Assembly: GCA_024449915.1 (NCBI GenBank)
Contig: JAMZAV010006724.1
Location: 58,759 to 122,758 of the forward strand
Reading direction: 5' to 3'
Length of the DNA: 64,000 nt
DNA from: Sweltsa coloradensis
Lineage: Eukaryota; Arthropoda; Insecta; Plecoptera; Chloroperlidae
The translations under genes were made by a program, and so were the position numbers. The notes under the pieces were generated by a model. The model had not been told where the DNA came from. It was given only the letters and a program-made list of their open reading frames with translations, and made no database searches. This document shows, one piece after another, positions 1,006 to 41,398 of the stretch; positions within the stretch are counted from its first letter, which is position 1; every line of letters starts with the position of its first letter.

Positions 1006-1589
1006 CTAGGAAAACGCTAAAGTCCCGCCGCGTTGATGGATGAGCTTTTTTGTAAGTCCTTAGTTGGCATAGGACCACTTTTCCTTTGCAAGTGCTTTTT
1101 GAATACATTGTAGGTGATTGTTGTAAAGTTTCTATTGTTATTTGTTAATTGTTATTATAAACCTCAAAAAATTCATATTAAAACCTTTATTTCTATGGAT
1201 TCTTAACTTTTTCAACTTTTTCTTTCAAAAGGTATTACATCACCATTACCTTAATGTCCATGTGAAATATGAACGTTGTAGCCCCATCCATCTGGTCAAA
1301 ATCGGCCCAAATGTCACAAAAATATCACACTAAAAATAAAAAATAAAAAAAATCGTAAAAGTACGATATTCATGAGAAATATTTCTTTGATTGTACCCAA
1401 AAACGAGGCACGTCTAAGCTCAGAGATTTTGAAGGTTCCCTACAATTTTCATCAAGATCGCATATGCCATTTGCCCGGAATCGTGCAAACAAACAGACAG
1501 AAAAACAAAAAAACAAACAAACAAACAAACATTGGAGTTAAATTTTTTGAGGGGTCAGTGAATATTGAAGTCTTCGCTTTGCTCATCCA
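1006..1589 (-). mobile_element. Small asymmetric (Helentron-like) element, family A1
   Basis: Read on the minus strand, it starts with TGGATGAGCAAAGCG at 1589 and ends with a GCGTTTTCCTAG tail at 1006. The complementary GCTCATCCA lies just inside the 3' tail, so the inverted repeats are asymmetric. The base after CTAG is T on this strand. The interior has no long open frame and holds runs such as (AAAC)n near 1500. Related copies are at 9314-10062, 20641-21383 and 23230-25168. It lies inside the LINE whose parts flank it, so it is the younger insertion. Confidence 0.7.
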
Positions 1590-1765
1590 ATTACGTTCGC
1601 GATCGTGTCCAACAATCATGAGCCTTCCTGCATGACTCAAGTGAGTTTGACGTTTGACTAGCTCTAGCATAGCATATCAGTTCTCAGCGTGAGCACTGTC
1701 GAGTGTCGAGCATGGCCACTCTTTTGGTGGGGATTCCGGTTCGAGCATATGGAAGTGAAGAAGGG
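1590..1765. other. Unassigned DNA between element A1 and the LINE
   Basis: This is non-repetitive sequence with no frame worth reporting. It probably belongs to the foreign DNA that splits the LINE, because the LINE frame stops at about 1796 and the weak coding trace fades by 1766. Confidence 0.3.
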
Positions 1766-2406
1766 CATGTGTACAAGTGAAAAATAGAAACCTTTTCAGC
1801 TATGGTCATGAAAATGAGAGCGTATTTCTTGAAATAATGCTTGGAATTGAGTATTGGATGTAAGACTCTTTTTGTATCGAGACAGTTTGGTAATGCAAGT
1901 CGGTTTGCAGAGCGTCCAAGGTGGAATTGAACCGTAGGACGTTATTAAGGCTAAAAGTAATGTTATGTGCAATTTCTCCAACAGTTCAAGCGAACGAATG
2001 CCTACTGGTCTAATTGCTTTCGGACGTAAGAAACAACAATTTTTAAAAGGGGGATCTAAAACTGCATTGTGGGAAGGGTTTTTGGGGTGACCTTTTAACG
2101 ACGCCACATAATTAAGCATCAAGTGATTCCTTCTAGTGAGTAATGATGGTTCTCCTGCTTCGTTGTATAGGCTATTAACAGGACTGGTTCGGAATGCGCC
2201 TGTTAACAATCGAATACCAGTGGGGTGTAATGTATCCAACGTCCTAATGTATGAAGGCCTAGCAGAGTTGTAAATAAAGCTAGAAAAGTCCAATTTTGAG
2301 CAGATAAGTGCTCTGTATAAATTGCAGCATGATAGTTCGGTCTGCACCCCATGAAGCTGATTGTAACAAATAAGGGCGAGGTTTATGCCCACCTTGACCA
2401 ACATAA
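1766..2406 (-). pseudogene. LINE fragment: C-terminal part of reverse transcriptase
   Basis: A 202-residue frame on the minus strand matches the thumb and connection region after the RT catalytic core of I/Nimb-like LINEs. LYRALICSKLDFSSFIYNSA and the stretch GIRLLTGAFRTSPVNSLYNEAGEPSL are both characteristic. The RT palm with its YxDD box should lie upstream, above 2406, but is not present. The frame ends at a stop near 1797, where an RNase H domain should follow. That domain is found at 1-648, so the two pieces form one element split by about 1.1 kb of inserted DNA. Confidence 0.8.
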
Positions 2407-2984
2407 TTTGAAAGGTAGTAGGCTAATGTTGTGTTTATAAAAAAGTTTGTTTGGTTCCATTAATTTGAACGGTCATCAAATTCTAGCAATTAATGCAAAA
2501 CCTAAAAATGTCAATTATTGCTGCATCGGAAAAAGTTTGCAAGTCCGTAAGTTCTACCTATGAGCAAAAAAAAGTTGTTTTATACTCTCATGGGTAACAT
2601 AGAAACTCATGTTCAAAGTTTAAAAATAATTTAAAATATTAGTACAGTAGTTGGTAACATTCTGGTGGAATGACCCACCTACCTAGTTCAAAGATCCCCT
2701 TAAAATACCAACCAGATGATCATATTACCCTTTTCCGGCAGAGAACAAACAGACAACCAAACAACATATAACTCAATATATTTTTCTCAGGATAGGCCCT
2801 AGTCCTATAGAAATTCAAAACTATTCAAGAAACATTTTTCCGGACTGCTATTAAAAATTTCAGGAATATCCGGACCCTCCACAAACGCTTATTGCACAAT
2901 AACCATGTAAATATAAGACTTTCATGATACAAAATTTTCCAACCACACTTTCGGATCATAATGCACAATGATTACATTTAAAAA
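2407..2984. other. AT-rich unassigned spacer
   Basis: No open frame, structural RNA or clear repeat boundary is seen. A short GAACAAACAGACAACCAAAC run near 2742 resembles the interior of the small asymmetric elements found elsewhere in the window, so an old fragment may be present. Confidence 0.3.
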
Positions 2985-8937: not shown

Positions 8938-9223
8938 CTAGGGAAACGCCAAAGTCGTTGTTAAACGAGTGAGTGAGCTATGTGTTGAGTACCCCATAAC
9001 ATATTACTTTTCTTCCCCCTACCTTAGGCCTCCCTAGCCTATCATAGGCTAGAGAGGCGCATAACGGCCTTACAGTTGACGCGCCCGTATCGGCGTATAC
9101 CAACTAAACTTAAAAAAACTATTATTTATGTGAATTTAATTATCAATCTTAAATGCAAATGTTCCCGGGTACTCAATACATGACTCGCTCACTTGTCTAA
9201 CAACGACTTTGGCGTTTCCCTAG
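8938..9223. mobile_element. Double-ended element C, copy 1
   Basis: Both ends are the same 3'-type terminus in opposite orientation: CTAGGGAAACGCCAAAGTCG at 8938 and its complement ending GGCGTTTCCCTAG at 9223. Outside bases are A on the left and T on the right, so each terminus sees T on its own strand. Inside both ends lies GTTGTTAAACGAGTGAG-type sequence (CTTGTCTAAC at the right end). The middle is unlike the middles of the copies at 30654-30833 and 31328-31505. Confidence 0.65.
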
Positions 9224-9304
9224 TCAAGTTGGCTAAAGCGCCCTTATAGCCGAAATATGGGAGACGTGGGTTCAATACCCTGGTCGGGAAAGATTTTGTA
9301 ATTT
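9224..9304 (+). repeat. tRNA-like (SINE-type) block
   Basis: AGTTGGCTAAAGCG resembles a pol III A box, and GGGTTCAATACCC about 45 bases later resembles a B box. The sequence cannot fold as a complete tRNA and is followed by non-tRNA DNA, so it is best read as the head of a tRNA-derived SINE or a captured tRNA pseudogene. A second copy lies at 32438-32524 in the same relation to a family B element. Confidence 0.5.
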
Positions 9305-9313
9305 CTGGATTGT

Positions 9314-10062
9314 TGGATGAGCGAAGCGAAGACTTCAATTTGACTTTGTGTTTTTTTGTTTGTTTTTTACTTACGTTACCCCAAGAAAAATAGCTCGGGT
9401 GTTTTGTTTTTGTTAGTTTTTTTGTCTGTTTGTTCGCTCTCTACCGGGCAAACGGCATTTGCGATCTTGATGAAAATTGGAGGGGACCTTCGAAACCTCT
9501 GAACTTAGAGCTGTATTGTTTTTGGGAACAATCGACGTAATATTTCTCATAAATATCGTACTTTTACGATTTTTTTTTCAATTTTTATTGTGATTTTTTC
9601 GTTATATTTGGCAAACGGTTTCTCCGATATTGATGAAACTTTATCGGAACGTTTAAAATCACTTAAGTCATATATGTTATGATTTTAGAGACATTTGAAA
9701 AAATATTTCTTATAGAAATCGTACTTTTACGATTTTTTCTCCGGTTTTTAATGCGATATTTTCGTGATATTTGGGCCGATTTTGACCAAACGGGTGGGGC
9801 TACAACGTTCATATTTTACATTGACATAAAGATTATGGTGATGTAGTGTCTCTTGAAAGAAAAAGTTGAAAAATTGGTCAAAATTGGTCGAAAAAGGTTT
9901 TACTATAGGCCTTTTACAGGTGTATAATTAACAAGTAGCTTACTATCAAGTAACGAAAGAAAAAGTAATGAGATTCCACTTAAAAACGTAATCATTCCAC
10001 AGAAATATTCCAAAAAATGCTCATCCATCAACGCGACTGGAAAAAGCGTTCGCGAAGCGGCC
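9314..10062 (+). mobile_element. Asymmetric element A1, nested, type-2 tail
   Basis: It starts TGGATGAGCGAAGCGAAG after a T and ends with ATCAACGCGACTGGAAAAAG, then CGTTCGCGAAGCGGCC. The AACGC/GCGTT hairpin near the end is kept, but the last bases differ from the CTAG tail. The corresponding region at 32510-32560 lacks this insertion and joins the two flanks directly, which fixes the boundaries to within a few bases. The interior matches 1006-1589 in reverse, including a T-rich TGTTTTTTTAC tract and ACTTTTACGATTTTTT. Confidence 0.75.
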
Positions 10063-10758
10063 TGGTATTTAAAAAATTATTAAACATGTTTTGAAATGCA
10101 TATAACGCAGTGTAGTCCATCATCTGTGGCAATAGGGCCTACTATGGTAAACATAGCCAGTAGGCCTACGAAATACGTGAAAATATTGCATGGTTTACTC
10201 AATCTACGAGCCGAATTTGGGGGTAGGCCTACCTTGACTTGCAACATTTGATAAACCTTGTACTGTGTACAGAATGTACACGGCATTTCACAGCCAGGTA
10301 AATAACAAACAAAAAATATATTTTCAAAATCTAAACCATTGTCGTTAAAATTATTTCTAAAGCCTATTTTTCAAATTATTATTTCTTGTGGGTTTAAATC
10401 GCAATGGATCTAGCTGATTTTGTTAGCAGTTCTCAGTAAACTCGTACCGGATGTCTGTTAAAAATTTCAACGCAATCTGTTAAGCGATTCGGCTGATTTT
10501 CAACGTACACACACGCACGCAGACTAACAGAATGAGAGCCGTTTGAGTTGAATGGAGATCACTCCGTTTGCTGCGCTCACTCGTTTAATAAACTGGCCAC
10601 TCTATAACAACACATTGATGGATTTTTCTTTGTTTATGCCTTTGCTTCCTGAGTAATGTGAAAATGTAACCTACAACTTTATTCGGGCCAGCGCTTCAAT
10701 TAGATTTACCACAACTGGTTTTGCATGTAGGCCTACGCTCGCTGTAGGCTACATTAAT

Positions 10759-11540
10759 TGGATGAGCGTAGCGAGCGTAGCGAGCGAAGCGAAGATTCCA
10801 TTTCACTACACTGGAGAAAAAAATCCGGAATGTTTTTTTTTTTTTTTTTTTCTTTCTTTCTTTCTGTATTTTTGTCTGTCTGTTAACACGATTCCGGCTA
10901 AACCGATACTCCGATTGCGATGAAATTTTATGGAGGCCTTCGAAATCTCTGAACTTAGAACTGCCACGTTTTTGAGCGCAATCAAAAAATTATTTCTCAT
11001 GAAAATTGCAATTTTACGATTTTTTTCGATTTTTAAAAAATTTCTTCGACTTATAACACCTACATGCTTTATCCGATTTTAATGATTTTTACACACAACC
11101 TTTATTTTATGAATTAAGATATTCTTGTGAAATTTGAGCGCAATTGAAAAAATATTTATCATAAAAATCGAAATTTTACGGGTTTTTTCTTTTTTAAACA
11201 ATTCTTTGACTTATAACACCTACATGCTTTATCCGATTGAAATGATTTTTTCGCAGAACCTTAATTTTATGAATTAATATATTACTGTTAAATTTGAGCG
11301 CAATCGAGAAATTATTTCTTATAAAAATTTCAATTTTACGATTTTTTTTAACAATTACGATTAATTAAAAAAAAAAAAAAAAAAAAAAAAATATTTTTTA
11401 TTTTATTTAATTTAATTTAAAACATTTCAATTTAATAATGATTTTACCACAGAACAACAGAAAATTCGCATAACACATGGCAGCTCAATGCACCAATTAC
11501 GCTCATCCAACAACGCGGCGGGACTTAAGCGTTTTCCTAG
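10759..11540 (+). mobile_element. Asymmetric element A2 with internal tandem repeats
   Basis: It begins TGGATGAGCGTAGCGAGCG after a T and ends GGCGGGACTTAAGCGTTTTC then CTAG, followed by T. CGCTCATCCAA, the complement of the 5' start, lies just before the tail. Between them are a pyrimidine tract (10838-10865) and about three ~120-base tandem units, each carrying CGACTTATAACACCTACATG, a TTTATCCGAT block and a CAATTTTACGATTTTTT-like end. It has no coding capacity. Confidence 0.75.
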
Positions 11541-11546
11541 TTTTAG

Positions 11547-13780
11547 TATAGGGTAAGTGGGGGGAATTTGGAGGTACCGGTATGTTTAGAAAAAAATTAA
11601 TTTTATACATATTTTTTATATTAATTAATAATTATGCACAAATACTCTCTTGAATGATATGTTGTTTGCTAAGGTTTAATAAAAAATGTGCATTTTGGCA
11701 GTTATTGGTCATTAATCATATAAAAAGTGGAATTTTATGCTTCAACTACACAACCACAGGCCTGAAATCTTCTATAATACACATGCTGTAGAATGGGGGT
11801 AAATGGGTGGTGATAGAGGAAGTGAAACTGAAGAGATTGATACCTCACACTTTGTTGTAGGTTAAAAACTAATGGATATATTTAATAATGTTATAATTAA
11901 TTATATTCTATGCAACGATAAACAAAATATGCAAATGAACAGACTAGGCCTATAACTATTTTTACATTTTTGTCTTGGTTTTTACTAAACATAGGTACTT
12001 AATGTGTGAACAAACTGTAACAAGATTTTCATGATTTCAATATAAAATAAAAAACTTAGGGCCTACTTAACTTTAAAAACTTTTAAAAATCACTGACAAA
12101 ATAGCCACTGGACTAGATTTATAGGTTATGTTGCCCTATGTCAAAAACTTGAAAATGAAGGGAAATTGTTGCAGATATAACTGCCATCTAAAAACATCAC
12201 TAAAATAAGTTGGTTTCAAGAGCAGCCTGGTAGAAAAAGTTTAAATTATTAGGTAAAACATAATTTTGAAGTTCAACTTCTTTACCACCCATTTCCCCAC
12301 AATGGGGGTAATTGGGTGGTAGGCCTACTTATTTAATTGCTTGTTTTCATTGATGATATTTTGTTTATTGTTGTGATAAATACACAAACAATATTTTTCA
12401 ATATCTTTAATACTTTAAAACAAGCATTGGTTGAAAATACACTGCTTGGAAATAATAGAACTCAACTTAACATTTGAATTGCAAAGTTCTAAATAACTTT
12501 CAGTCCTCTTCCATTGACAACAATAATAGTATCTTCTTTAACAATTACAATTTGTTCATAAACCAACTACACATTTGGATGAGCGTAGCAAAGATTCCAT
12601 TTCACTACACTGAAGAAAAAAATCCGGAATGTTTTTTTTTGTATTTTTGTCTGTTCGTTAGCACTATTCCGGCTAAACCGACAGTCCAATTGCGATGAAA
12701 TTTTCTGGAGGCCTTCGAAATCTCTGAACTTAGAATTGCACGATTCGAAAAATCGTTCAAAAAATTATTTCTCGTGAAAATCGCAATTTTACGATTTATT
12801 TCAATTAATTCTTCGACTTAGCCTATAACACCTAGACCTACATGCTTTATCCGATTGTAATGATTTTTTAACAGAACCTTAATTTTAAGAATTAATATAG
12901 GCCTATTCGTGTGAAATTTGAGCGCAATCGAAAATTATTTCTTATGAAAATTGCAGTTTTAGGATTTTTTAAATTTTTAAAACTTTCTTCGACTTGTAGG
13001 CCTAACACCTACATGCTTTATCCGATTGTAATGATTTTTTCACAGAACCTTAATTTTATGAATTATTATTATCGTGTGAAATTTGAGCGGAATCAAACAA
13101 TTATTTCTCTTAATAATTGCAATTTTACAATTTTGCTATGGTGCTGGGATAATGCTAAGGCTTTTACAATTTTCATTTTTTTTTTAAAGTGAAAGGTGTT
13201 CAAGATTAAAAAACAATACATCTAAACATTTACCAGACGGATTTTATAATTTTTGTTTTGTTTGATAATATATAATTTTTTTCCTTTGCATTGTTTGAAA
13301 ATGTAGGCTATGTTTTTTGTGAAAAATCTATATCTCCCATATTTTAAATAAAAAACTATAAATCTCATCAAAAAAGTGTCCGGTGAATTTGTCAGAATAA
13401 GACTTGTGAGCACATTAAAAAAGAAATTATCCTTTCATCTTAAAAACTGTAGAAGAAGTAGGAACAATTGTTAGCAAATGTGCTAGAATAAAAGTTTTGA
13501 GAAAAAATCATTTAAAGTTTATTTATGTTGTTTTTTGGTAAAACAACAGAAAATCTGCATAACACATGGCAACTCAATGCACCAATTACGCTCATCCAAC
13601 AACGCGGCGGGACTTAAGCGTTTTCCTACTGTTAATTATTTAAGAGTGATATCTTATGAGAATTTTAAGATAGTTTACTTACTTTAACAGTACCCAATAA
13701 CTTGGAAAAATGGAAAAAACAAATGTTCCACCCAATTACCCCCCCGCCCCCCCCCTCCCAATTACCCCGCTTACCCTATA
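11547..13780. mobile_element. Non-coding element with GGGTAAG-type terminal inverted repeats
   Basis: The left end TATAGGGTAAGTGGGGGGAA (11547) is mirrored by TTACCCCGCTTACCCTATA at 13780, with imperfect complementarity for about 26 bases. Motifs such as ATGGGGGTAAATGGGTGG (11790) and its complement CACCCATTTCCCC (12287) add internal symmetry. A second asymmetric element, 12576-13629, is nested in it. No transposase is visible. Superfamily and target duplication could not be settled. Confidence 0.65.
12576..13629 (+). mobile_element. Asymmetric element A2, nested copy
   Basis: It starts TGGATGAGCGTAGCAAAG after TT and ends with CAACAACGCGGCGGGACTTA then AGCGTTTTCCTAC. The last base is C where most copies have G. 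The following base is T. The interior shows the same ~120-base tandem units as the neighbour at 10759-11540, followed by about 400 bases of private sequence before the 3' end. Confidence 0.7.
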
Positions 13781-13976
13781 ACTGTTTGCATACAGCATAA
13801 TATAATACCATTACGCAAAAACATGACAACAACAAAAACTAAAACATTTTTATTTCCATGAGCTTGGCTGGTGCTGATTCCGTGATGTCCAAGATCAACG
13901 GTAAAAACAGCAAGTTTTACCCAAGAAACGCTGAAACTTGGAGCAAAGTCTAGCGATATAAACTATAAAGACTCAC

Positions 13977-14138
13977 CTGCCGAGTTCGGCAAACAACACT
14001 CTCATCCACTCCTCATCATCGGTCGGTGCCTTCTGATTGGTCAGACGCTGAGCAAGCCACGCATGCGCCAGACAGACGCTCAGGTTCAGCGCAACATTGA
14101 ACACAGTGTGCACGCACTCAGCACCGTACATTGTGGCA
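13977..14138 (-). CDS. Candidate internal exon of an unidentified gene
   Basis: On the minus strand a TTTCACATTACAG acceptor precedes a 162-base open block, and GTGAGT follows directly as a donor. The reading starts ATMYGAECVHTVFNVALNL and ends with a charged stretch containing PTDDEEWMRVLFAELG. It begins and ends in split codons (one base completes the first codon, two bases are left at the end). Composition is clearly richer in GC than the surroundings, as in real exons. I do not recognise the family. The amphipathic middle could be a helix or a membrane-proximal segment. A promoter-like block at 20.1-20.3 kb lies upstream on this strand. A second copy at 17556-17715 is frameshifted. Confidence 0.55.
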
Positions 14139-14321
14139 CTGTAATGTGAAACAGAACTAGTATATAGGGATGGTATACGTTAGTGTAGGCCTACACGTGT
14201 AGGCTCAACATTTTAATGCGTTCTTTACACGTTTACTGTTTCTACGAATATAATAAACTTGTGTGTGTATCCCTATGCTGTGTGCGCGCGCAAATCTCGT
14301 TGCGCCGTGCAATGAGTGTTG

Positions 14322-17300
14322 ATGTAGGCCTACCGCTCGCTGTAGGCTACATTAATGGATGAGCGTAGCGAGAGTAGCGAGCGAAGCGAAGATTCCATTT
14401 CACTAACATGAGAAAAAAATCCGGAATGTTTTTTTTTCTTTTTTTTCTTCTTTCTTTCTGTATTTTGTCGGTCTGTTCACACGATTCCGGCTAAACGATT
14501 ACTCCGATTGCCCGATGAAAGTTTATGGAGGCTTCGAAATCTCGAACTTAGAACTGCCACGTTTTTTGAGGCGCAATCAAAAAATTATTTCTCATGAACA
14601 ATTGCAATTTTACGTTTTTCCGATTTTTAAAAATGTCTTCGACTTATAACACCTACATGCTTTATCGATTTTAATGATTTTTACACACAACCTTTATTTA
14701 TGGAATAAAGATATTCTTGTGAAATTTGAGCGCAATTGAAAAAATATTTATCATAAAAATCGAAAATGTTAAGGGTTTGGTGTCTTTTTGTAAAACAATT
14801 CTTTGACTTATAACACCGACATGCTTTATCCCCCGCTTGAAATGATTTTCGCAGAACCTTAATTTTATGAATTAATATATGGACTGTTAAATTTGAGCGG
14901 AATCGAGAAATTATTTCTTATAAAAAATTCAATTTGACGATTTTTTTTAAACAATTTACGATTATTAAAAAAAAAACCCCCCAAAAAAAAAAAAATATTT
15001 TATTTTATTTAATTTAATTAAAACATTTCAATTTATAATGATTTTAACCACAGAACAACAGAAAATTCGCATAACAAGCAGCTCAATGCACCAATTACGC
15101 TCATCCAACAACGCGGCGGCTATGCGTTTTCCTAGTTTTAGTATAGGGTAAGTGGGGGGAATTTGGAGGTATGTTAGAAGAAAAATTAATTTTATACATA
15201 TTTTTTTATTTATATTTTTTAACTAATAATTATGCACACATACTCTCTTGAAATGATAAGTTGTTTGCTAAGGTTTAATAAAAAAATGTGCATTTTGGCA
15301 GTTATTTGGTCATTAATCATATAAAAAGTGGAATTTTTATGCTTCATACACAACCAACAGCCTGAAATTCTTCTAAATTACACATGCGTAGAATGGGGGT
15401 AATGGTGGTGATAGAGGAAGTGAAACTGAAGAGATTGATACCACACTTTGTTGTAGGTTAAAAACTTAATGGATCTATTTAATAATGTTATAATTAATTA
15501 TATTCTATGCAACGATAAACAAAATATGCAAATTAGCTAACAGACTATAACTATTACATTTCTGTCTTGGTTTAATAAACCCATAGGCCACCATACTTGA
15601 TGTTGAACAAACTGCAACAAGATTTTCTGATTCAATCTAAAATAAAAAAACTTAGGGCCTATTTAACTTAAAAAAACTTTAAAAAATCATTGACAAATAG
15701 CCACGGACTAGATTTATAGGTTATGTTAGCCCTATGTTTCCCCAAAATTGAAAGAAGGTGAAATGTTGCAGATATAACTGCCATTAAAAACATCACTAAA
15801 ATAAGTTGGTTTCAAGAGCAGCCTGGTGGAAAAAAGTTTTAAATTATTGTAAAACATAATTTGAAGTTCAAACTCTTTTACCACCATCTTCCCACAATGG
15901 GTAATTGGGTGGTAGGCCTACTTATTTCATTGCTTGTTTCATTGATGATATTTTGTTTATTGTTGTGATAAAAACACAACAATATTTTCAATATATTTAA
16001 TACTTTAAAACAAGCATTGATGAAAATACCTGCTTGGAAATTAAAGAACTCAACTTAACATTTGCAATTGCAAAGTTATAAATAACTTTCAGTCCTCTTC
16101 CATGACAACAATAATAGTCATCTTCTTTAACAATACAATTTGTTAATAAACCAACTACCACATTTGGATGAGCGTAGCAAAGATTCAGTCCACTACATGA
16201 AGAAAAAATCCGGAATGTTTTTTTGTATTTTTGTATGCGTTAGCACTATTCCGGCGTAACGACAGTCAATTGCGATGAAAATTTTTCTGGAGGCCTTCGG
16301 AATCTCGGAACTTAGAATTGCAAGATTCGAAAAAATCGTTCAAAAAATTATTTCTCGTGAAAAATCGCAATTTTACGATTTATTTCAATTAATTCTTCGA
16401 ACTTAGCCTATAACACCTAGGCCTACATGCTTCATCCGATTGGAATGATTTTTTTTAACAGAACCTAAATTTTATGAATTAAAGAGGCCTATTTCGTGTG
16501 AAATTGAGCGAACTCCGAAAATATTCTTATGAAATTGCAGTTTTAGGATTTTTTAAATTTTAAAAACTTTCTTCGACTGTGGAGGCCTAACACATACATG
16601 CTTATCCGATTGTAATGATTTTCACAGAACCTTAATTTTATGAATTATATTATCGTGTGAATGTGAGCGGAATCAAAAATTATTTCTCTAATAATTGCAA
16701 TTTTACAATTTGCTATGGGCTGGGATAATGCTAAGGCTTTTACAATTTTCATTTTTTTTTAAGTGAAAGGTGTTCAAGATTAAAAACCAATACATCTAAA
16801 CATTTAACCAGACCGGATTTTATAATTTTGTTTTGTTGATAATTATATAATTTTTTCCCGTTGCATCGTTGAAAAATGTAGGCTATGTTTTTTTGTGAAA
16901 AATCTATATTCCATATTTAAATAAAAAAACTAAAATCTCATCAAAAAAAAGTGTCCGGTGAATTTGTCAGAATCAAGACTTGTGAGCACATAAAAAGAAA
17001 TTATCCTTTCATCTTAAAAACTGTAGAAGATAGTAGGAACAATTGTTAGCAAATGGGACTGAGAATAAAAGTTTTTCTTAAGAAAAATCATTTAAAGTTA
17101 TTTAGTGTTTTTTGGTAAACACAACGAAAAATCTGCAGAACACATAGGCAACTCAAGCACCAATTACACTCATCCCAACAACGCGGCGGATTAGCGTTTT
17201 TCCTACTGTTAATTATTTAAGAGTGATAATCTTATGCGAATGTTAAGATTAGTTTACTTATTTTAACAGTACCCAATTAACTTGGAAAAATGGAAAAAAC

Positions 17301-17906
17301 AAAATGTTCCAACAATTTACCCCCCCCCCCCCCCTCCCAATTACCCGCTTACCCTATAACACTGTTTGAATAGCATAATATAATACCATTACGCAAAAAC
17401 ATGACACAACAAAACTAAACATTTTTATTTTCCATGAGCTTGGATGGTGCTGATTCCGTGATGTCCAAAGATCAACGGTAAAAACAGCAAGTTTTACCCA
17501 AGAAACGCTGAAAAACTTGAGCAAAGGTCTAGCGATAATAACTATAAAGACTCACCTGCGCGTTCGGCAAACAACACTCTCCATCCACTCCTAATCACGG
17601 TCGGTGCTTCTTGATGGTCAGGAGCTGGGCAAGCCAGCATGCGCCAGACAGACGCTCAGGTTAGCGCAACATTGAACACACGGTGTGCACGCACTCAGCA
17701 CCGTACATTGTGGCACTGTAATGTGAAAAACAGAACTAGTACCATATAGGGATGGCTACGTTAGTGTAGGCCTACACTTGTGTAGGCTCAACATTTAATG
17801 CGTTCTTTACACGTTTACTGTTTCTCGAATATAATAAACTTGTGTGTGCTCCTATGCTGTGTGCGGCCAGCGGCCAAAATCTCGTTGCGCCGATGCAATC
17901 GAGTGG
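14322..17906. repeat. 3.6-kb tandem duplication, copy 2 (degraded)
   Basis: This is the second unit of the tandem duplication. It differs from copy 1 mostly by single-base insertions and deletions, many in short homopolymers, and by few substitutions. The same elements recur at 14356-15135 (A2), 15143-17360 (GGGTAAG element) and 16165-17206 (nested A2). This error pattern resembles uncorrected long-read sequence, so the unit may be a misassembled haplotype rather than a biological duplication. Confidence 0.85.
17556..17715 (-). pseudogene. Second copy of the candidate exon, frameshifted
   Basis: It matches 13977-14138, including the acceptor and donor, but is 160 rather than 162 bases long and has several small indels, for example in the CATCCACTCCT and GGTCAG segments. 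No single frame stays open. It is either a decayed duplicate exon or the same exon seen through poor-quality sequence. Confidence 0.6.
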
Positions 17907-21873: not shown

Positions 21874-21889
21874 CTCAATGCACCAATTA

Positions 21890-22380: not shown

Positions 22381-23073
22381 TATATAATTAAATTCATAAA
22401 ATTAAGGTCTGTGAAAAATCCATTACAAATCGGATACAGGTAGGTGTGATCAGCCGAAGAAATTTTAGTATAAAAAATCGAAAAATCGTTAAAATTGCGA
22501 TTTTCATGAGAAACTAATTTTTTGATTACGTTCAAGTTTCAACGAATATATTAATCATAAATTAATGTTCTGTAAAAAATCATTACAATCGAATAAAGCT
22601 TGTAGGTGTTATAAGTCGAAGACCGTTTTTTAAAATCGAAACAAATCGTAAAATTGCGATTTTTTCATGAGAAAATATCTTTCGATTGCGCTCAAAAACG
22701 TGGGGCAGAATCTAAGTCAGAGATTTGAAGTCCTCTAGAAAATTTTCAAAGTATGGAGTATCGGGTAGCCGGAATCGTGAAGTTACAAACACACAAAATA
22801 CAAACAGAAAAAAACAGAAAAACGAAAAAAATCGGAAAATTTCTATTTTCATGAGAATAATTTTTCGATCAATTTTTGAACCGTGCAGTTCTAAGTTAAG
22901 AGATGTCAAAGGATCTCCAGAAAATTCATTGCAATTGGACTATCGGTTAGCCGGAATCGGGCGAACAGACACAAAAATACAAAAAAAAAAGGAAAAAAAC
23001 ATCCGGAAATTTTTTTTTTTCTCAGTGTTGTAGTGAAATGGAAATCTTCGCTTTGCTCGCTACGCTCATGCCA
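22262..23073 (-). mobile_element. Asymmetric A-type element, type-2 tail
   Basis: On the minus strand it starts near 23073 with GGCATGAGCGTAGCGAGCAA and a following GCGAAGATTTCC, and ends with the type-2 tail GCTTTGCGAAGCTTCC at 22262. The interior carries the ~120-base units (TCATTACAATCG, GTTATAAGTCGAAG and so on). A 102-residue plus-strand frame in it (22725-23033) is K/N-rich, has no domain and is not a gene. Confidence 0.6.
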
Positions 23074-27512: not shown

Positions 27513-27607
27513 CTGAAAAGATGTAAAATATAAAACAAATCACGTACATTTTTCAAGTCTCTTCTATGTAGTTTATTCGCCTAAAGCATAAACCAAATAA
27601 GTAACTC

Positions 27608-28360
27608 GGAAGCTTTGCAAACGCTTTTCAGCGCGTTGTTGGATGATGTCGTAATAATTCGGTGCATTTGCGCTTCCATGTGTTATGCGGATTTCTGTGG
27701 ATTCTGTGAAAAATCATTACTAAGTCGATTTTTCTTTAATTAAATTAAATCAAATAAAAGTAACTTAAAATTTAAAATTTTAATTAACGTAATTTAACAA
27801 AAAGAAAAAAGATCGTAAAATTGCCAAATTTTCATAAGAAAGAATTATTCCCATTGCGCTCAAATTTAATATGACTATATTATCATAAAATTAAGGTTCT
27901 GGAAAAAAATCATTACAATAGGATAAAAGCATCGTAGCGTGTTATAGTCAAAGAAACTGTTTAAAAAAATAAAAAAACGTAAAATTTGATATTCATGAGA
28001 AATAATTTTTCGATTGCACTCAAATTTTACAGGAATATTTATTCATAAATTAGGTTCTGTGAAATAATCATTAAAATTCGGATAAAGCACTAGGTGTTAT
28101 AAGTCGAGAAAATTTTTAAAAATAAAAAAAATCGTAAATAGCGATTTTCCATGAGAAATAATTTTCCGATGCCACCAAAAACGTGGCAGTTTTAAGTTCA
28201 GAGCTTTGAAGGAGCATCCAGAAATTCATCGCAATTGGAGATCGGTTTAGCCCGGCATCGTGCTGCCCCCAACACACAAAAAATACAAAAAAAAACATTC
28301 CAGATTTTTTTCTCCCAGTTTAGTGAAATGGAATCTTCGCTTTGCTGCTATGCTCATCCA
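27608..28360 (-). mobile_element. Asymmetric A-type element, type-2 tail
   Basis: The minus-strand start is TTGGATGAGCATAGCAGCAA (28360), and the tail is GCGCTGAAAAGCGTTTGC then AAAGCTTCC at 27608. Three ~120-base units with TCATTACAATAGG, TTATAGTCAAAG and GCGATTTTCCATGAG blocks fill the interior. It is non-coding. Confidence 0.7.
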
Positions 28361-28485
28361 ATAACTGATTGCGGAATAAGAGGAGAGTAAGAATATTTTG
28401 ATATGGTTTCATAAAGATGTATTGGCTCACAGTGTTCTACAATCGATAGTCTAATCCCTGTTCAGTTATGTGGATGTTTTGATAA
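28361..28485. other. Spacer between two asymmetric elements
   Basis: These 125 bases of unassigned DNA separate two elements in the same orientation. Nothing else is seen. Confidence 0.4.
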
Positions 28486-29131
28486 CTAGGAAAACGGTTA
28501 AGTCCCGCCGCGTTGTTGGATGAGCGTAATTGGGCATTGGAGATGCCATGTGTTTATGCGGATTTTCTGTGTTCTGTGGAAAAAATTTAGTACTAAGTTT
28601 GCAAGATTTTTTTAAAAATTAAATTAAAATTAAATAAAAATAAAACTTTAATTTTTAATTTTTTTAATTTACTCGTTTATGAAATTAAAAAAATTGAAAA
28701 AAGAAAAAAAGTTGCAATGTTTATAAGAAATAATTATTCGATGCGCTGAAATTTCACACGAATATATAAATTCATAAAATAAGGTTCTTGTGAAAAAATC
28801 ATGAAAATGGATTAAGGCATGTAGGTGTTATAAGTAAAATAAATTTCAAAAACTCCCGAAAAAAAAAAATCGTACAATTGCGATTTTATGAGACAAAATA
28901 ATTTTTGATTGCGCTCAAAAACGTTGGCAGTTCTAAGTCAGAGATCTGGAAGGCCCCCTCCATAAAATGTCATCGCCAAACGGAGTATTCGGTTTAGCCG
29001 GAATCGTTTGCTGACAAACACACAAAAATACAGAAAAAAAAGAAAGAAAGGAAAGAAAAAAAAAACATTCCAGATTTTTTTTCTCCAGTGTAGTGAAATG
29101 GAATCTTCGCTGCGCTCGCTACGCTCATCCA
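28486..29131 (-). mobile_element. Asymmetric A-type element with CTAG tail
   Basis: The minus strand starts TTGGATGAGCGTAGCGAGCG at 29131 and ends CGGCGGGACTTAACCGTTTT then CCTAG at 28486, followed by T. It is internally like the A2 elements, with a purine tract at 29033-29062 and at least one ~120-base unit. A near-full pairing partner of the 5' start (CGCTCATCCAA) precedes the tail. Confidence 0.75.
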
Positions 29132-29149
29132 ATAAACAAGTAGGCTATG

Positions 29150-30150: not shown

Positions 30151-30833
30151 TTAAACGAGTGAGCGGAGCGACCGAGTATCTCCATTCAACTCGAACGGCT
30201 CTCATTCTTTGATTCTGTCTGTCTGTCTGTACGTCGAAAATCAGCCGAACCGCTGAACAGATTGGGCTGAAATTTTAAACAGACATCCGGTACGAGTTTA
30301 CTGAGAACTGCTAACAAAATCAGCTAGATCCATTGTGATTTAATCCTACAATAAATAAAAATGTGATTTTTAAAATATCGATAGCATTTGTTTAGTAGCA
30401 GCTAGCGGGTCTATATCTATGTGGCTTGCATGGCCTATTGGTAAGCATTGAGTGTACCAAACGGAGGGTTGGATGGGGTTCGATACTCATTAGCTCCAAC
30501 CTTTTTTATAATTTTACACCCACATATTATTTTTGAGGGGTGTTAAATGGGAAATAAAACTTGGGTGATTTTGTTTTTTCTTGGAAATTTGTTAATGTTT
30601 CACGCTAATACGTTTTGAACACGATTCGCATTTCAAATGTTCAATTTAAATAACTAGGGAAACTCCAAAGTCGTTGTTAAACGAGTGAGTGAGCCATGTG
30701 TTGAGTACCCGGTATCATTCCTCATATACTGGGCTAGATCCTTAGGTATAGGGGAGGAAAGGGGATGTTCCCGGGTACTCAACACTTGGCTCACTCACTC
30801 ACTCGTTTAACAACGACTTTGGCGTTTCCCTAG
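30151..30833 (+). mobile_element. Asymmetric element family B, tandem copy 1
   Basis: It starts TTAAACGAGTGAGCGGAGCG and ends AACAACGACTTTGGCGTTTC then CCTAG. CTCACTCGTTTAA, the complement of the start, lies just before the tail. An internal tRNA-like block spans about 30425-30500 (GGCCTATTGGTAAGCAT with GGGGTTCGATACTC). Its last 180 bases form a double-ended C piece (30654-30833). The next copy starts at the very next base. Confidence 0.75.
30654..30833. mobile_element. Double-ended element C, copy 2
   Basis: Inverted 3'-type termini lie at both ends (CTAGGGAAACTCCAAAGTCG on the left, its near-complement on the right), and the inner arms ...GTTGAGTACCCGG / CCGGGTACTCAAC extend the pairing to about 60 bases. 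The centre is about 55 bases of private sequence. It can fold into a long hairpin. Confidence 0.7.
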
Positions 30834-31505
30834 TTAAACGAGGGAGCGGAGCGACCGAGTGTCTCCATTCAACTCAAACGGCTCTCATTCTGTGATTCTG
30901 TCTGTCTGTACGTCGGAAATCAGCCGAACCGCTGAACAGATTGGGCTGAAATTTTAAACAGACATCCGGTATGTGTTTACTGAGAACTGTTAACAAAATC
31001 AGCTAGATCCATTGCAATTTAAGCCTACAATAAATAAAAATGTGATTTTTAAAAATATCGATAGCATTTGTTTAGTAGCAGCTAGCGGGACGAGATATTC
31101 CTGGCTGGCATGGCCTATTGGTAAGCATTTAGCCTACCGCACGGAGGGTTGGGGTTCGATGCCCGATAATTGGAACTTTTTTATATTTTTACACCCACAT
31201 ATTATTTTTGAGGGGTGTATATGGGAAATAAAAATTAGGTGATTTTGTTTTATCTTGGAAATTTGTTAATGTTTCACGCTTATACGTTTCGAACACGATT
31301 CGCATTTGGAATGTTCAATTTAAATAACTAGGGAAACGCCAAAGTCGTTGTTAAACGAGCGAGTGAGCCAAATGTTGAGTACCCGGGAAACTCCCATGTC
31401 CTCCCATATACCCAAGGCTGCATCTTGTCCAGTATGGGGAATTATAGCGGGTACTATACACATGGCTCACTCACTCGTTTAACAACGACTTTGGCGTTTC
31501 CCTAG
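30834..31505 (+). mobile_element. Asymmetric element family B, tandem copy 2
   Basis: This is a head-to-tail repeat of the preceding element, 672 against 683 bases, starting TTAAACGAGGGAGCGGAGCG and ending CTAG at 31505, followed by T. It includes a tRNA-like block at about 31105-31175 and a double-ended C piece at 31328-31505, whose centre differs entirely from that of copy 1. Confidence 0.75.
31328..31505. mobile_element. Double-ended element C, copy 3
   Basis: The left end is CTAGGGAAACGCCAAAGTCG and the right end its complement. The arms pair for about 60 bases, while the middle ~60 bases (31388-31450) are unlike copies 1 and 2. The base outside each terminus reads T on that terminus's own strand. 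Confidence 0.65.
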
Positions 31506-32289: not shown

Positions 32290-33019
32290 CTTTCGCATTA
32301 TGGCCTTACAGTTGACGCTCCCTTATATCAACTAAACTTAAAAACTCTATTATTTATACCAATATAATTATTAAACTTAAATGCAAATGTTCCCGGGAAT
32401 TCAACACATGACTTGCTCACTCGTCGCGTTTTTCTAGTCTAGTTGGCTAAGGCACCCTTATACCTGAAATGTGAAAGACCTGGGTTCAATCCCCTGGTCG
32501 GGAAAGATTTTGTAATTTCTAGACTGTATTTTATAAAAATTATTAAACATGTTTTGAAATGCAGATAACACTATGTAGTCTATCATCTGTGACAATACTA
32601 TGGAAAACATAGCCAGTACAAAATACGTGTAAAGATTGCAAGGTTTACTCAATCTCCGAGAGGAATTTAGGGGTACCTTGAGCGTGCCAGATTCGTTACA
32701 CCTTGGTCACTGCTTGTAATTTTCACTGCCTGAAAAATTATGATTTTTATTTTTTCAAAAATAAAACCATTATCGTTAAAATAATTCCTACACGTTCGCA
32801 GCCTATTTACAACTTATTATTTCTTGTAGGTTTAAATTGCAATGGATCTAGCTGATTTTGTTAGCAGTTCTCAGTTAATTCGTACCGGATGTCTGTTTAA
32901 AATTTCAGCGCAATCTAGTCAGCGATTCGGCTGATTTTCAATGTACATACCACACACACAGAATCACAGAGTAAGAGCCGTTTGAGTTGAATGGAGATCC
33001 TCAGTCGCCCCGCTCCCTC
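32290..33019 (-). mobile_element. Asymmetric element family B, empty-site copy
   Basis: The 5' region at 33019-32830 (minus strand) matches family B. Going left come a unique middle, a tRNA-like block at 32438-32524 and half of a C piece ending CTAG at 32437. It parallels 9070-10588 over its whole length but lacks the A1 insertion found there. The left C half is lost at about 32300. Confidence 0.65.
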
Positions 33020-33021
33020 GC

Positions 33022-35093
33022 CTCTCATCCAATATGCTGACGACTCGAGCCACCTTCTTACCCTACCTAAACATCGTCCTTTTCATGAGTTTCCCCCCTT
33101 AATTACCAAACAAGTTGCTCAAATGTCATCCTACTGCCTTGGCAATCAACTCATCATCTCACGTTCGAAAACTGTTTATCCCTACTTTCACACTCATCAT
33201 AAGCAGAGTTGGGTAAGTTCATTAAAAAATGGAACTAGTTCCAGTTACAAGTTCCTCATAAGAAAAAGGAACTCTTTCCAGTTACAAGTTCCTCTAAAAT
33301 AAAAGGAACTAGGGCGTTCCTAAGTTCCTTTTCAAATGGAACTAAGTTCCTAAAAAGTTCCTTTTTTTCAATTTCCATTTTTCTTTAGATCTTCTTGAGA
33401 GGATCAATGATTAGTAACGGTAGATATCCGAATTTATACTTGAAACCAAGTATTTGCAAATAATATATAAACTTTGTTTAAGATTTGGAGGAATTAAATA
33501 TATAAGGATGAGTATGTACTATGTAGGCTTTTACGGCCTGTGAATCAATTTTGAATGATCTTTGAGTTGATGATGCACTGCTCCACGTTTCGCAACCAAC
33601 ATAGGTGGTGAACACGACACAACGCAACAACCCAAAAGATCATTCAAAACTCAAGGGTGATTGTATTGAAAAGAATGAAGTTTAGTTGGCAATGCGACTA
33701 ATAATGGTGAGAAACCCACGGTGGATGGGGGTTGACCACTGAGTGTAGGAATGGGGTTGGGGGTATGACAAGAATTTAGAACAATTGAGGCGAATTTTAG
33801 ATTTCCTGGAAACTTGAGTACGTATTTTACAATCCCTTCATCTTGTAAGTAAACTATGATTTGACTCTTTCATTCCTTAAATTTGTACAGTCAAGTTATA
33901 GAAAAGGAACTTATGAAAATAAGTTACAGTTCCTGGAAAATTGGAACTAGTTCCTACCTTAGTTCCTGTCTGGAAAAAGGAACTAGTTCCTTCATTCGTT
34001 CCTTAAAAAGGAACTAGTTCCTAGGAACTGGAACTGTTTAGTTCCGTTCCTACCCAACACTGATCATAAGATCCCCCCACTAAGTCCCCTTGTCCGTCTC
34101 GACTCGACTACCATCCCCCGCACCCACACCGCCAAAGTCCTAGGCCTAGCGCTAACCGATAATCTTGACTGGTCCATAGGCCTACATGTTAACCATGTTG
34201 CCAACAAAATATTATCGGGTTGCTACGCAATTCGCAAACTCAAACAAATAGTACATTCCCCCGTCCTTCTGCTAGTATACTTTGCCCACGTTCACTCTCA
34301 CCTATCATATGGTCTGCTTTTCTGGGGAGCTTCTCCCCAAGCTAACCGAATCTTCATTCTTCAAAAGAGAACCATCCGAATCATAGCAGGTGTATCTAGA
34401 AGGCATTCGTGTAGGAACTCTTCAAGAAACTGGGAATTCTTACCCTAGCATGTACCCTAATCCAAACAGCTGCATTATTTGTCCGTACCCACAGCAATCT
34501 GTTCCCTCGGAACATCTCTGTGCATTCTCATTACACTAGAGCCAGTCTCCATATTCATCGGTCCTCTCACAACTTGACTCTCTTTTCCCGTGGCCCTGAA
34601 CATCTTGCATCCACCCTCTACAATAAACTCCCTAATCACATCAAAACCTCCCCCTCGCTGTCCTCTTTCAAACACAACTTGAAATCTTTCCTTGTGACCA
34701 ATAGCTTTTACTCCATTAACGACTAGGCTACCTCACTGATGAGTAAGCTTGCGTTTTCTCCTCGTATTAATTTCTATCTATAAATAAAGGCCTAAACAGT
34801 ATTCTTTCCAATTGCCAATTATTCATGTGCTGGCCTACCAAATATTTTAATTTTGATAAATTAGTATAAAGGGCTTGTAATCATTGTAACTTATCAATAT
34901 TTTTACTCATTTTGAAGGCCATATTGTATATTATATTATATTATATTTATGTATTAGGCCTACTATTGTATATATATATTGTATATATCGTGTGTTTGTG
35001 TATGTCTACTGTGTATTACTATTTTCTATCTTTCCTGACGAAACCTATATTTGTATTATGTACGAATCAATGGTGAATAAATTATCTTAAATC
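33022..35093 (+). pseudogene. LINE reverse transcriptase fragment interrupted by a hAT-like element
   Basis: The frame opens with IQYADDSSHLLTLPKHRP at 33031-33080, carrying the catalytic YADD box, and runs to 33203. After an 859-base insertion the same frame resumes at 34071 (LSPLVRLDSTTIPRTHTAKV, then LGLALTDNLDWS, and FAHVHSHLSYGLLFWGAS up to about 34340, and ILQKRTIRIIAGVSRRHS). Frameshifts follow after 34410. The N-terminal RT and endonuclease are absent, with a family B element at the 5' break. A non-coding 3' region follows to about 35093, where AATAAA-like and ATTTTA-rich sequence occurs. Confidence 0.8.
33204..34062. mobile_element. hAT-like MITE, 859 bp, 8-bp TSD
   Basis: The ends are CAGAGTTGGGTAAGTTC and the complement of CAGTGTTGGGTAGGAACG. 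The 8-bp duplication ATCATAAG is perfect at 33196-33203 and 34063-34070. Subterminal regions hold repeated GGAACTAGTTCC palindromes on both sides (33230-33370 and 33940-34040). There is no transposase. The host LINE frame is continuous across the site once one duplication is removed. Confidence 0.9.
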
Positions 35094-39240: not shown

Positions 39241-39362
39241 ATAGTTGCACGTTTTACATGGTAGCATCGCATCCGACTGCTTCTGGCAATTAAAGCAATG
39301 AGTTGCATAACGTTCTTGATCCAAAACTGCAGCAAACGGCTTTTCCACTAGCACGGTGTCTC
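39241..39362 (-). CDS. SMYD4: SMYD4-like exon: start of MYND zinc finger
   Basis: The acceptor TTTTCCAG lies at 39363-39370 and the donor GTAAGT at 39240-39235. The 122-base exon reads DTVLVEKPFAAVLDQERYAT then HCFNCQKQSDAMLPCKTCNY. VEKPFA is the typical SET-N strand just before the MYND finger, and HCxxC...CxxC gives the first zinc ligands. It begins with two bases completing a split Gly codon (the preceding exon must end in a lone G) and ends at a codon boundary, so it joins the exon at 35767 in phase to restore the CxxC...YHNVEC finger. The MYND finger binds proline-rich partners in this family. Confidence 0.9.
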
Positions 39363-39756: not shown

Positions 39757-39807
<51 letters not shown>

Positions 39808-40790
39808 TTTTATTTAACGTCTATCCTATTCAGTTATAAAAACTGATTTACAAAGGAGGACAACTAAATAAATCTAATTACATAGATGCAGACACAACAA
39901 TGAACTTTGAAATAGTAATATTACAACAATGCATTAAATACTCAACAAATTTGATAACAAATAAAAAGGATATTAAATGCAATTTATGAATGAATCGAAT
40001 AATATATAAAAAAGGGGGGTGGGGAATGAAAAGAAAGGAAAAAAGGAAAGAAAAAGAAAAAATGAAAGGAAAAAAAAACATTAAAAAAGAAAAACGAAAA
40101 GAAAAAACTGATTTATTAGACGATCCCACTCAAACGAATATGAGGTTTGCCAAAAATCAGGAACAGCAAATCAGGGAGTAATCAATCTTTCGCGGAAGAA
40201 ACCACCGAACGCGAATCTTCATTCTTGCGTTCAACCATCATTCTTGTGTTCAAATCTTGATAACAATTTAGTGCAAAAGATCTTGACTCTAATATATAAT
40301 TATATCAGATATATAATTATTTAAAATTGTTCAAGTCAAAAACTGATCATAGCAATGATACAGGACACCTAACTCAAGTTGCAAGTTCCACCAGTGGGCG
40401 GCAACCAGACAATCTAGGCAGAAAAATATCAATTGAAAAATGAAAATACATTGAATACATCAAAATCAAAGCAATAATGAACAAACAAAGAGAACAGCAA
40501 AATCATAAATAAGAACATATGAAATTAACATTACATAAACACAGAGACAATGCCCCACAAATAAATAATAAAAATCAATTCTTCTTTGTTCTTCGATTCA
40601 TTATCATTGCTTCAATTTTACTTTTAAATTGTACTATTCCTAGCTCAGTAAACTGGCTTCTAATATCATAAGAAATTGAATTCCAAAAGGATACTCCTCT
40701 GTACAAGAATGACTTTCTTAATGATTCAGAAATTAATTTAGGAACTTTCAAAGAGTTCATTAGAATAGAATTTCTATCACGATCAACAAA
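39757..40790 (-). pseudogene. LINE 3' end: C-terminal coding piece, 3'UTR and (AAAT)n tail
   Basis: The minus strand reads SLKVPKLISESLRKSFLYRG then VSFWNSISYDIR (40755-40640), the standard extreme C-terminus of many LINE ORF2 proteins, and ends in a stop at 40575. About 750 bases of 3' sequence follow, and the element ends with CCTCCTTTGTAAATCAG, AGGATAGACGTTAAATAAA and a long (AAAT)n microsatellite at 39757-39815. The same 3' end and tail occur at 54950-55095. The 5' part is missing above 40790. The K-rich plus-strand frame at 39990 is a by-product. Confidence 0.75.
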
Positions 40791-40960
40791 TTAAAAATAT
40801 TATTATCAATTACACCTATGAGCATGTTTTCCAATTAATTATATTGAGAAACAAGTGGTCGCTGGCGTGACCACTTGCGCCAGTCCTTTCCGCCGCATGT
40901 TCCGATCTGTCGAAAGACTTACTGACGCATGTGGTTTCTAAAGAATGCAGAGTAGGGTAA

Positions 40961-41398
40961 TTGAGCGAGCGTAGCGAGCGTCTCCACTTGACTCTTATGG
41001 CTCGAATGTCTGTTTTTGTTTTTTTGTTTTTTTCTGTTACTGCTTCGGTACAGGTCACACAGTTTCTCTGATCGACCTGAAATTTTGCACACATGTACAT
41101 ACCACCTATGCGGGTTGCTGTATAGTTTTTGAACAAAATTCGATCGTTGGTTATAATAAATAAAGAATAAAATAAAAAAATAAAAAAATAAAAATGTTCC
41201 GATCGTTATGAAATTTTGCAGGGTCAATAACTACAACATTCTCTACTATTTTACAAATTTTCAGCTAAATCGGTCAAGACCTTAAAGACTTATTGGTATG
41301 TAACATTATGAAAATGTCGTACTCGTCGTCGTACTCGGTCGTTGTTGCACGTACCGGTGCTCGCTCAACAACGCGACGGGACTTTAGCGTTTTCCTAG
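40961..41398 (+). mobile_element. Asymmetric element family D, complete copy
   Basis: It starts TTGAGCGAGCGTAGCGAGCG and ends GCTCGCTCAACAACGCGACG then GGACTTTAGCGTTTTCCTAG, with T following. CTCGCTCAA before the tail is the complement of the start, so this third family has its own 5'/3' match but the common tail. The interior includes a CTGTTTTTGTTTTTTTG tract and ATCGACCTGAAATTTTGCAC. It is non-coding. Confidence 0.75.

Follow-up and report, generated by a model that had tools for sequence, protein, structure and literature searches.

Short transposon families of probable Helitron-like nature share a 3' tail in the genome of Sweltsa coloradensis, and one of them has probably changed its 3' end

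Results

A common 3' tail closes three families of short elements

The 64,000-nucleotide stretch of DNA analysed here (hereafter the window; Sweltsa coloradensis, Plecoptera, GenBank assembly GCA_024449915.1, contig JAMZAV010006724.1, positions 58,759 to 122,758, forward strand) contains copies of three families of short elements, named A, B and D. Each family begins with its own start, whose complement recurs just inside a 3' tail that is common to the three. The elements are probably non-autonomous rolling-circle (Helitron-like) transposons, and in family B the 3' end appears to have been replaced by a symmetric module. Copies in the window are collected in Table 1; a slash inside a sequence marks an element border or an insertion point.

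The 12-mer GCGTTTYCCTAG of the tail occurs at 10 exact sites in the window (19 sites with up to 2 mismatches, 5.99 expected from shuffling) and 100,193 times in the host genome (1.449 Gb, 16,871 contigs; 50,207 and 49,986 on the two strands), compared with 127 occurrences of the same 12-mer read backwards. The common tail proposed by the first-pass annotation is thus abundantly present in the genome. It had also been described as constant, which is true of part of the copies: among the 12 A-type 3' ends found in the window by pattern search, six have the short tail and six a longer variant, in which CAACGC...GCGTT comes with extra bases and the end is CTAG, CTGG, CTTG or CGAG. One short A tail ends in CTAC in both units of a tandem duplication. 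Short-tailed and long-tailed A copies can have a common interior (10773-11348 and 42964-43563, 85.4% alike). The proposed hairpin, a stem of AACGC with GCGTT, is formed in the predicted fold (5 bp; in B, 4 bp plus an isolated pair) and finishes 7 nt before the element end in three of the four folded tails; its strength relative to shuffled sequence is unremarkable (z of -0.58, 0.06, -1.57 and -1.02). Since the fold is no more stable than shuffles, the word hairpin rests here on the recurrence of AACG and CGTT, and not on energy. Tail patterns had no match in IMG/VR or in bacterial and archaeal genomes, and Rfam and tRNA scans of the window found nothing.

Family-specific starts are paired with family-specific inner 3' repeats

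The starts are TTGGATGAGCG in A, TTAAACGAG in B and TTGAGCGAGCG in D (the latter also written TTGAGCGAGC). They are read with both initial T's because the inner 3' repeat mirrors both; in the A' subtype, CTCATCCAT, it mirrors the second T only. Alignment by the ends gives the form TTGGATGAGCG ... CGCTCATCCAA-CAACGCGGCGGGACTTAAGCGTTTTCCTAG/T for A, TTAAACGAG ... CTCGTTTAA-CAACGACTTTGGCGTTTCCCTAG/T for B and TTGAGCGAGCG ... GCTCGCTCAA-CAACGCGACGGGACTTTAGCGTTTTCCTAG/T for the D copy. The families had been called unrelated, a description that does not hold for their end repeats, which are alike at a mean of 6.2 of 10 positions across A, B and D (9.4 within a family, partly by construction).

The pairing of starts and tails was examined in 83 exact tails from 60 fetched genomic regions plus the window (73 of the 83 lie outside the window; the regions, which bear labels of L followed by a number, surround places among the first 100 in the list of occurrences, all on contigs C1 and C2; the sample used below amounts to 340 kb). 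Within 1.5 kb upstream of each tail, the start of the same family was found for 43 of the 45 A-type tails (B start in one, D start in none), for seven of the nine D-type tails (A or B start in none) and for 19 of the 22 B-type tails, module arms (see below) included (A start in one, D start in none). Seven unclassified tails had an A start in two cases and a D start in one. A family's own motif on the opposite strand was found for 2/45 A, 0/9 D and 4/22 B tails, and 11 B copies keep their start once the left arms of modules are removed. The matched, family-specific ends postulated from the window are therefore present in A, B and D, and are borne out by the genome sample for A and D. The median length is 765 bases in A (39 copies, 555-1,474) and 518 in D (7 copies, 351-939).

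Insertion before T without target duplication

The base after CTAG is T in 81 of the 83 sampled tails. In 46 exact A and D starts, TT is preceded by A 31 times, by T 10 times, by G five times and never by C; with only 31 of 46, the left-flank A is a preference and not a rule. Two paralogous empty sites were found in the window, both without target duplication. For the A copy at 9313-10065 the joined flanks align with 32467-32590; this element ends CTGG/T and its site is G/T, the single T being ambiguous. The site of the A copy at 42903-43569 reads TTTA/TAT at 46040-46170, that is, A/T. Together with the asymmetry of A and D, these two sites agree with the earlier statement that the elements are not cut-and-paste miniature inverted-repeat transposable elements (MITEs). 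No DDE transposase was detected in Pfam scans of 10 of the 46 window open reading frames (ORFs) and of the Rep-helicase described below; no wider search for one was made.

Copies of family B end in a symmetric, twin-tailed module

The asymmetric inverted repeats reported by the first-pass annotation are found in A and D, whereas the three complete B copies of the window each end in a symmetric module of 178-286 bp with a complete tail at both ends. Of the remaining B-type ends in the window, the one at 32426 is degenerate and another is interrupted by an inserted element (58903 / 62295 onward); a second arm was not found there. Over the first 40 bases, the two arms match at 93-100% in six of the seven modules compared (65% in L084). 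Genome-wide there are 16,439 copies of the 23-base B tail, against 0 of its control; by hand count, 18 tail-out pairs account for 36 of the 100 B tails listed first. Where both arms were read (n = 24, most of these loci being chosen for exact arms on both sides), the module is flanked by A on the left in 24/24 and by T on the right in 23/24.

The 29 modules adjoin a B1 body (13), a B2 body (11), another common body (2: L056, L073) or a B3-like body (1: L079); those of L039 and L084 have flanks found nowhere else in the 340-kb sample, save an A tail near L039. Two B2 bodies (L075 and L078) carry a type-1 core, indicating that body and core types are mixed. A module with two right ends was not reported for any Helitron-like element in the titles and abstracts found in the open-licence PubMed Central (PMC) literature.

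Among the 13 B1 copies the module is inverted ("flip") in five and not inverted ("flop") in eight, and the two orientations are opposite in the tandem pair of the window. Recurrent terminal inversion was considered as a source of this variation; recurrence is not claimed, and the trees do not prove it. In the core tree the flips form one lineage (support 0.915) together with L079 and the solo module L039, and the body tree mixes the flips: L088 is a flip on a body type that otherwise has flops, and the flops L035, L070 and L081 are on the other body type. The margin for L035 is narrow, and the junctions of L071 and L083 are altered.

The B1 family is cut at the border of the module

Region L018 groups one B1 element with two B elements of the ordinary kind (B3). 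B1 and B3 align over 497/497 bases of the B1 body (90.7%) and divide exactly where the module begins: AAATAA/CTAG in B1 (CTAGGGAAACGCC, module), AAATAA/TTATTG in both B3 elements (TTATTGTGGCAAG). If the module was inserted at the B3 site, copies joining its right end to TTATTGTGGCAAG are therefore predicted. The exact 26-mer of this right junction (module end plus TTATTGTGGCAAG) was found 11 times in the genome (control 0). Such B elements with a nested module are likely, judging from their junctions, to be still-present intermediates of a 3'-end replacement. The module would have inserted at an A/T site within an ordinary B element, replacing its 3' end; the module's outer (right) CTAG would then have taken over as 3' terminus, and B1 would be the new and amplified family that resulted; B2 bodies and at least one further body type carry the same kind of module. 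This order of events is the simplest reading of the junctions. The exchange of termini, one of two explanations offered by the first-pass annotation for the constant tail, thus gains a concrete case in the B1/B3 junction and the 11 nested right junctions. In the Helraiser experiments, as given in the passages of PMC4778049 drawn on here, 3' ends can be bypassed and replaced.

In the same region (L018:1920-3978) three B elements stand in a row, the first two joined CTAG/TTAAACG as in the tandem pair of the window. The row could consist of tandem rolling-circle products or have arisen by insertion at a neighbour's end.

An A-type 3' end downstream of a Rep-helicase gene

A search for Helitron_like_N scored 150 matches among 233 candidates in the host genome; the 14 control genomes yielded none. 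One region (L089, C962:70000-79900) contains an intact ORF of 1,637 aa (L089:481-5391) with DUF6570, Helitron_like_N and PIF1 helicase domains; in this one copy Pfam found no endonuclease domain (E up to 0.01) and no SET domain. An A-type terminus of the longer variant, CAACGCGACTGGAAAAAGCGTTTGCGAAGCTTCCTAG/T (GCTCATCCATCAACGCGACTGGAAAAAGCGTTTGCGAAGCTTCCTAG/T) preceded by GCTCATCCAT, begins 286 bases past the last Rep codon, and only 322 bases separate this codon from the end of CTAG. A 329-base query from the stop codon gave 40 scored matches out of 486 candidates, and 20 other copies end at query position 322-324. CTAG, which ends at query position 322, is taken as the element border because these 20 copies stop within 2 bases of it. 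The border is reached by 22 copies (L089, those 20 and one that stops at 318). A Rep match precedes 12 of the 22 on the same strand, in eight cases at a distance of 2.9-3.4 kb; the comparison covered 48 of the 150 Rep matches, picked to include contigs common to both lists, and is without a chance control. Another 14 of the 40 copies (C812:450369-450551 of genome G000 and 13 similar places) stop at query position 184-190. They form a second set, with about 184 bases from the stop codon in common and then a different 3' end; 10 of these 14 have an upstream Rep match, so that alternative 3' ends seem to exist among the Rep elements as well.

Motif 2 of this Rep is FRYEWQHRGSSHVH (RGSSHVH). In the sample of PMC4067079, as set out in the passages used here, S between G and P marks Helentrons and L marks Helitrons. 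The motif was recognised by pattern in 107 of 120 listed relatives (202 found), with S in 107/107, and was unrecognised in 13. Among the matches listed, the best named relatives belong to Macrosteles, Frankliniella, Paramacrobiotus and Tetranychus, at 44-48% identity. The outermost 500 of the upstream bases read (L091) have a 100% copy 4.1 kb upstream and are matched at 96% or more in 40 scored of 1,729 candidate places, resembling a long terminal repeat (LTR).

Features of the window

The window has 46 ORFs of at least 90 aa; in the 10 of them scanned with Pfam, the only domains detected were reverse transcriptase, RNase H and SET; relatives of the SET-domain ORF were sought and none was found. 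A direct tandem duplication (10725-17905, about 3.6 kb, 89.7%) carries two A elements per unit. At 21883-22381, adjacent A-type tails lie in both orientations with a period of 254 bp, possibly an A counterpart of the twin-tailed module. The B-type tail near the end of the window holds a 3.4-kb (approximately) element at 58919-62294, with inverted terminal repeats of about 1.03 kb (89.8% alike), the ends TAGTCCTTTGC...GCAAAGGACTA and AAA on both sides, as if from a 3-bp target duplication. Two short arrays with a unit of 36-37 bp and GGAACTAGTTCC palindromes lie at 33219-34023 and adjoin ORFs without a Pfam match; TAGGCCTA-type palindromes seem, by eye and uncounted, to be common in those parts of the window that were read.

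Table 1 Positions of A, B and D elements, twin-tailed modules and paralogous empty sites in the window.
Feature	Positions	Strand	Remarks
A-type element (A' interior)	1006..1590	-	TTGGATGAGCA...GCTCATCCATCAACGCGGCGGGACTTTAGCGTTTTCCTAG/T
B2 element	8938..10588	-	5' TTAAACGAGTGAGCGCAGC at 10588, 3' CTAG at 8938; split by the A copy 9313-10065
Twin-tailed symmetric B module, type 2	8938..9223	.	286 bp; makes up the 3' part of the B2 element; each end is CTAG
A-type element	9313..10065	+	In the B2 copy; longer tail, CTGG/T
A element	10758..11540	+	Central tandem repeats of about 160 bp; CTTT/GTCT microsatellite-like stretch (slash: not a border)
A element	12575..13629	+	Tail variant CCTAC
A element	14355..15135	+	Second unit of the tandem duplication
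A element	16164..17206	+	Degenerate tail; second duplication unit
A element	27605..28361	-	Longer tail variant GCGTTTGCAAAGCTTCCGAG
A element	28486..29132	-	
B1 element	30151..30833	+	First of head-to-tail pair; junction CTAG/TTAAACG
Twin-tailed B module, type 1	30654..30833	.	"Flop"
B1 element	30834..31505	+	Second copy of the head-to-tail pair
Twin-tailed B module, type 1	31328..31505	.	"Flip" (inverted relative to the copy at 30654)
Empty paralogous site	32467..32590	+	For 9313-10065
D element	40961..41398	+	TTGAGCGAGCG...GCTCGCTCAACAACGCGACGGGACTTTAGCGTTTTCCTAG/T
A element	42903..43569	-	Longer tail, CTTG/T
Empty paralogous site	46040..46170	+	For 42903-43569 (A/T)
Outer 16 bases of a B-type tail	58903..58918	-	Parted from the inner piece (62295 onward) by another element

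Discussion

The elements most resemble proto-Helentrons

The combination of a 5' TT, a 3' CTAG, insertion at A/T, a Helentron-type motif and a Rep without endonuclease is that of proto-Helentron-Pi, and for this reason we call the system proto-Helentron-like and not Helentron. Proto-Helentron-Pi of Phytophthora infestans is described, in the part of PMC4067079 used here, as having precisely these ends, A/T insertion without duplication and a Helentron-type Rep-helicase without endonuclease; within the open-licence PMC literature the term could be traced to PMC4067079 only. The likeness covers the TT and CTAG ends, the A/T site without duplication, the type of Rep motif and the lack of an endonuclease, and the end features are those of the non-autonomous elements, with left A at the frequency given above. 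The sampled elements of S. coloradensis differ: they are short non-autonomous copies whose inverted repeats are asymmetric and matched, their tails number about 100,000, and Pfam finds no SET domain in the one Rep ORF read. Their assignment follows the motif rule and not Rep phylogeny. Of the two ends, the Rep gene itself shows the A-type 3' end that follows it.

Other known systems share part of these features. HINE-type elements (HINE, DINE-1, Pearl and Cg_HINE; passages of PMC4067079 and PMC7492417) carry repeats both at their 5' tip and within their 3' end, a microsatellite, central satellite-like repeats and a short 3' palindrome. Family A shows this anatomy (subterminal inverted repeats, microsatellite, central repeats and a weak palindrome); the ends of those elements, whose left part has an extra inverted repeat, are T-rich and lie in TT, whereas here the end is CTAG and the site mostly A/T. 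Helitron2 or FoHeli of Fusarium oxysporum, as far as the consulted portion of PMC5148889 goes, has asymmetric terminal inverted repeats and a Rep-helicase without endonuclease, but ends in ATTTT or CTCCTGT instead of CTAG. Canonical Helitrons, exemplified by Helraiser (PMC4778049 and PMC5876387, in the sections relied on), share the CTAG/T end (CTAG in most of the 3' ends read here), the A/T target without duplication (here with right T near-constant, left A preferred and empty sites at A/T and G/T), replaceable 3' ends and an alternative CTTG-3' end. They differ in a 5' TC, against TT in A, B and D, in the want of matched inverted repeats, and in Rep motif 2 (RGLPHxH, with L, against RGSSHVH with S). 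In the sections of PMC5876387 relied on, Helitrons are without similar sequences in inverted configuration at their ends, and the B module, with a 3' end on both sides, is unlike them in this respect. The palindrome of canonical Helitrons measures 16-20 nt and lies about 11 nt from the 3' end.

A probable rolling-circle origin and its alternatives

We consider it probable that the three families represent rolling-circle (Helitron-like) transposons of a non-autonomous kind, moved by resident Helentron-type Rep-helicases that lack an endonuclease, and that in B a symmetric module has replaced the 3' end. Each element would have the form 5'-TT[family repeat]...[same repeat inverted]-CAACG-loop-CGTT-...CTAG-3' and insert before T, usually at A/T, without target duplication. 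The sampled A and D copies (0.35-1.5 kb) would be mobilised by Rep-helicase elements elsewhere in the genome, the autonomous one being expected to have a TTGGATGAGC-like 5' end. The family repeat, present at both ends, may be a Rep-binding site, which would be why it changes at both ends together, and the common tail may signal termination and nicking. Both the role of the repeat and the matching of Rep genes to families are inferred.

Several observations weigh against this interpretation. Six to seven of the 83 tails fit no family class, two lack the following T (L016, whose upstream sequence matches no family, and L062), and the regions sampled are a non-random draw. The predicted 3' stem is no better than that of shuffled sequence, and the empty site at 46040-46170 is a weak match (75.7% over 70 bases). 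The Rep gene of L089 has the longer A variant as its tail, an end from which the 12-mer GCGTTTYCCTAG is absent, and no matching 5' start was seen in the approximately 1.5 kb read upstream of it (480 bases and 1,000 more); of the Rep element with the same ends that the first-pass annotation proposed to look for, the 3' end has been seen. With one Rep copy read, no Rep element with the short A tail or with B (TTAAACGAG) or D (TTGAGCGAGC) ends was found. The 11 nested junctions, finally, are a count of exact matches to the 26-mer.

A strict Helentron system, with an endonuclease-bearing Rep-helicase and insertion into TT, is unlikely. It would account for the Helentron type of Rep motif 2 and for the HINE-like build of the A copies (matched subterminal repeats, a microsatellite-like stretch, central repeats of about 160 bp and a 3' palindrome, cf. 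the relevant part of PMC7492417); moreover, a T flank with a T start and a TT start are indistinguishable in single copies, and T precedes TT in 10 of the 46 starts. It does not agree with the ORF without endonuclease, after which only 322 bases are left before the CTAG end, nor with the CTAG end itself, the A that precedes 31 of the 46 starts and the empty sites at G/T and A/T. The Helentron-type label of the first-pass annotation is accordingly retained for the rolling-circle nature and for motif 2, and given up in its strict sense. With this qualification its finding is largely correct and reaches further than it claimed. Sharing of tails by recombination or gene conversion between copies, instead of through a common machinery, seems very improbable: it would suit the mixture of body and core types (the two B2 bodies with a type-1 core) and the A copies with like interiors and short or long tails, but the exact borders, the A and T flanks and the empty sites suit transposition, and conversion by itself does not place 100,000 copies.

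For the B module, a rolling-circle origin of the family leaves two readings, either of which we regard as possible without favouring it. The module may be a mobile unit by itself, both of whose termini are the 3' (right) ends of a rolling-circle transposon, which inserts at A/T in either orientation without duplication or a left end and spreads by lending its outer CTAG. A module of this kind would require a mechanism unlike the known one-strand, left-to-right rolling circle, for example a self-complementary single strand whose terminal hairpin is turned over. The ends of parvoviruses have such a terminal hairpin that is turned over. The module may equally be immobile, a single inverted duplication of the 3' end carried along with B bodies, with the solo modules as deletion remnants. 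This would explain why a B1 or B2 body lies beside 24 of the 29 modules, and another common or B-like body beside three of the five that are left, and it agrees with the requirement for a left end in known Helitron transposition (PMC4778049, in the passages drawn on); it sits less well with the exact A/CTAG left borders of L039 and L084, with the joining of the right end to the B3 continuation in 11 copies and with the several distinct bodies joined at the same module border. That the module is instead a cut-and-paste MITE, whose symmetric inverted repeats merely share sequence with a rolling-circle tail, is improbable. Its repeats are almost perfectly symmetric over the first 40 bases in six of seven cases (less so in L084), and the flanks of L039 and L084 are unlike any B body in the sample; yet there is no target duplication at the B3 junction, the one junction at which a constant-length duplication was looked for, the A and T flanks are near-invariant (24/24 and 23/24), and each end of the module matches the B 3' tail, a sequence that closes an asymmetric element in B3. 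Of the observations that the first-pass annotation named as refuting it, the module shows the symmetric terminal repeats but not, at that junction, the constant-length duplication.

Significance

A single genome combines the three related families with a candidate Rep-helicase, two empty sites and the steps of a 3'-end replacement (ordinary B, B with a nested module, and B1 cut at the module). With about 100,000 tails at hand, this co-occurrence allows a direct test of what the family repeat and the common tail each contribute. TT...CTAG with matched asymmetric repeats provides annotators with a search key for elements that might otherwise be filed as MITEs. If a symmetric module with two right ends does keep the A/T rule, it would challenge the need for a left end at the tip of the element. 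The case of family B illustrates how rolling-circle elements trade ends.

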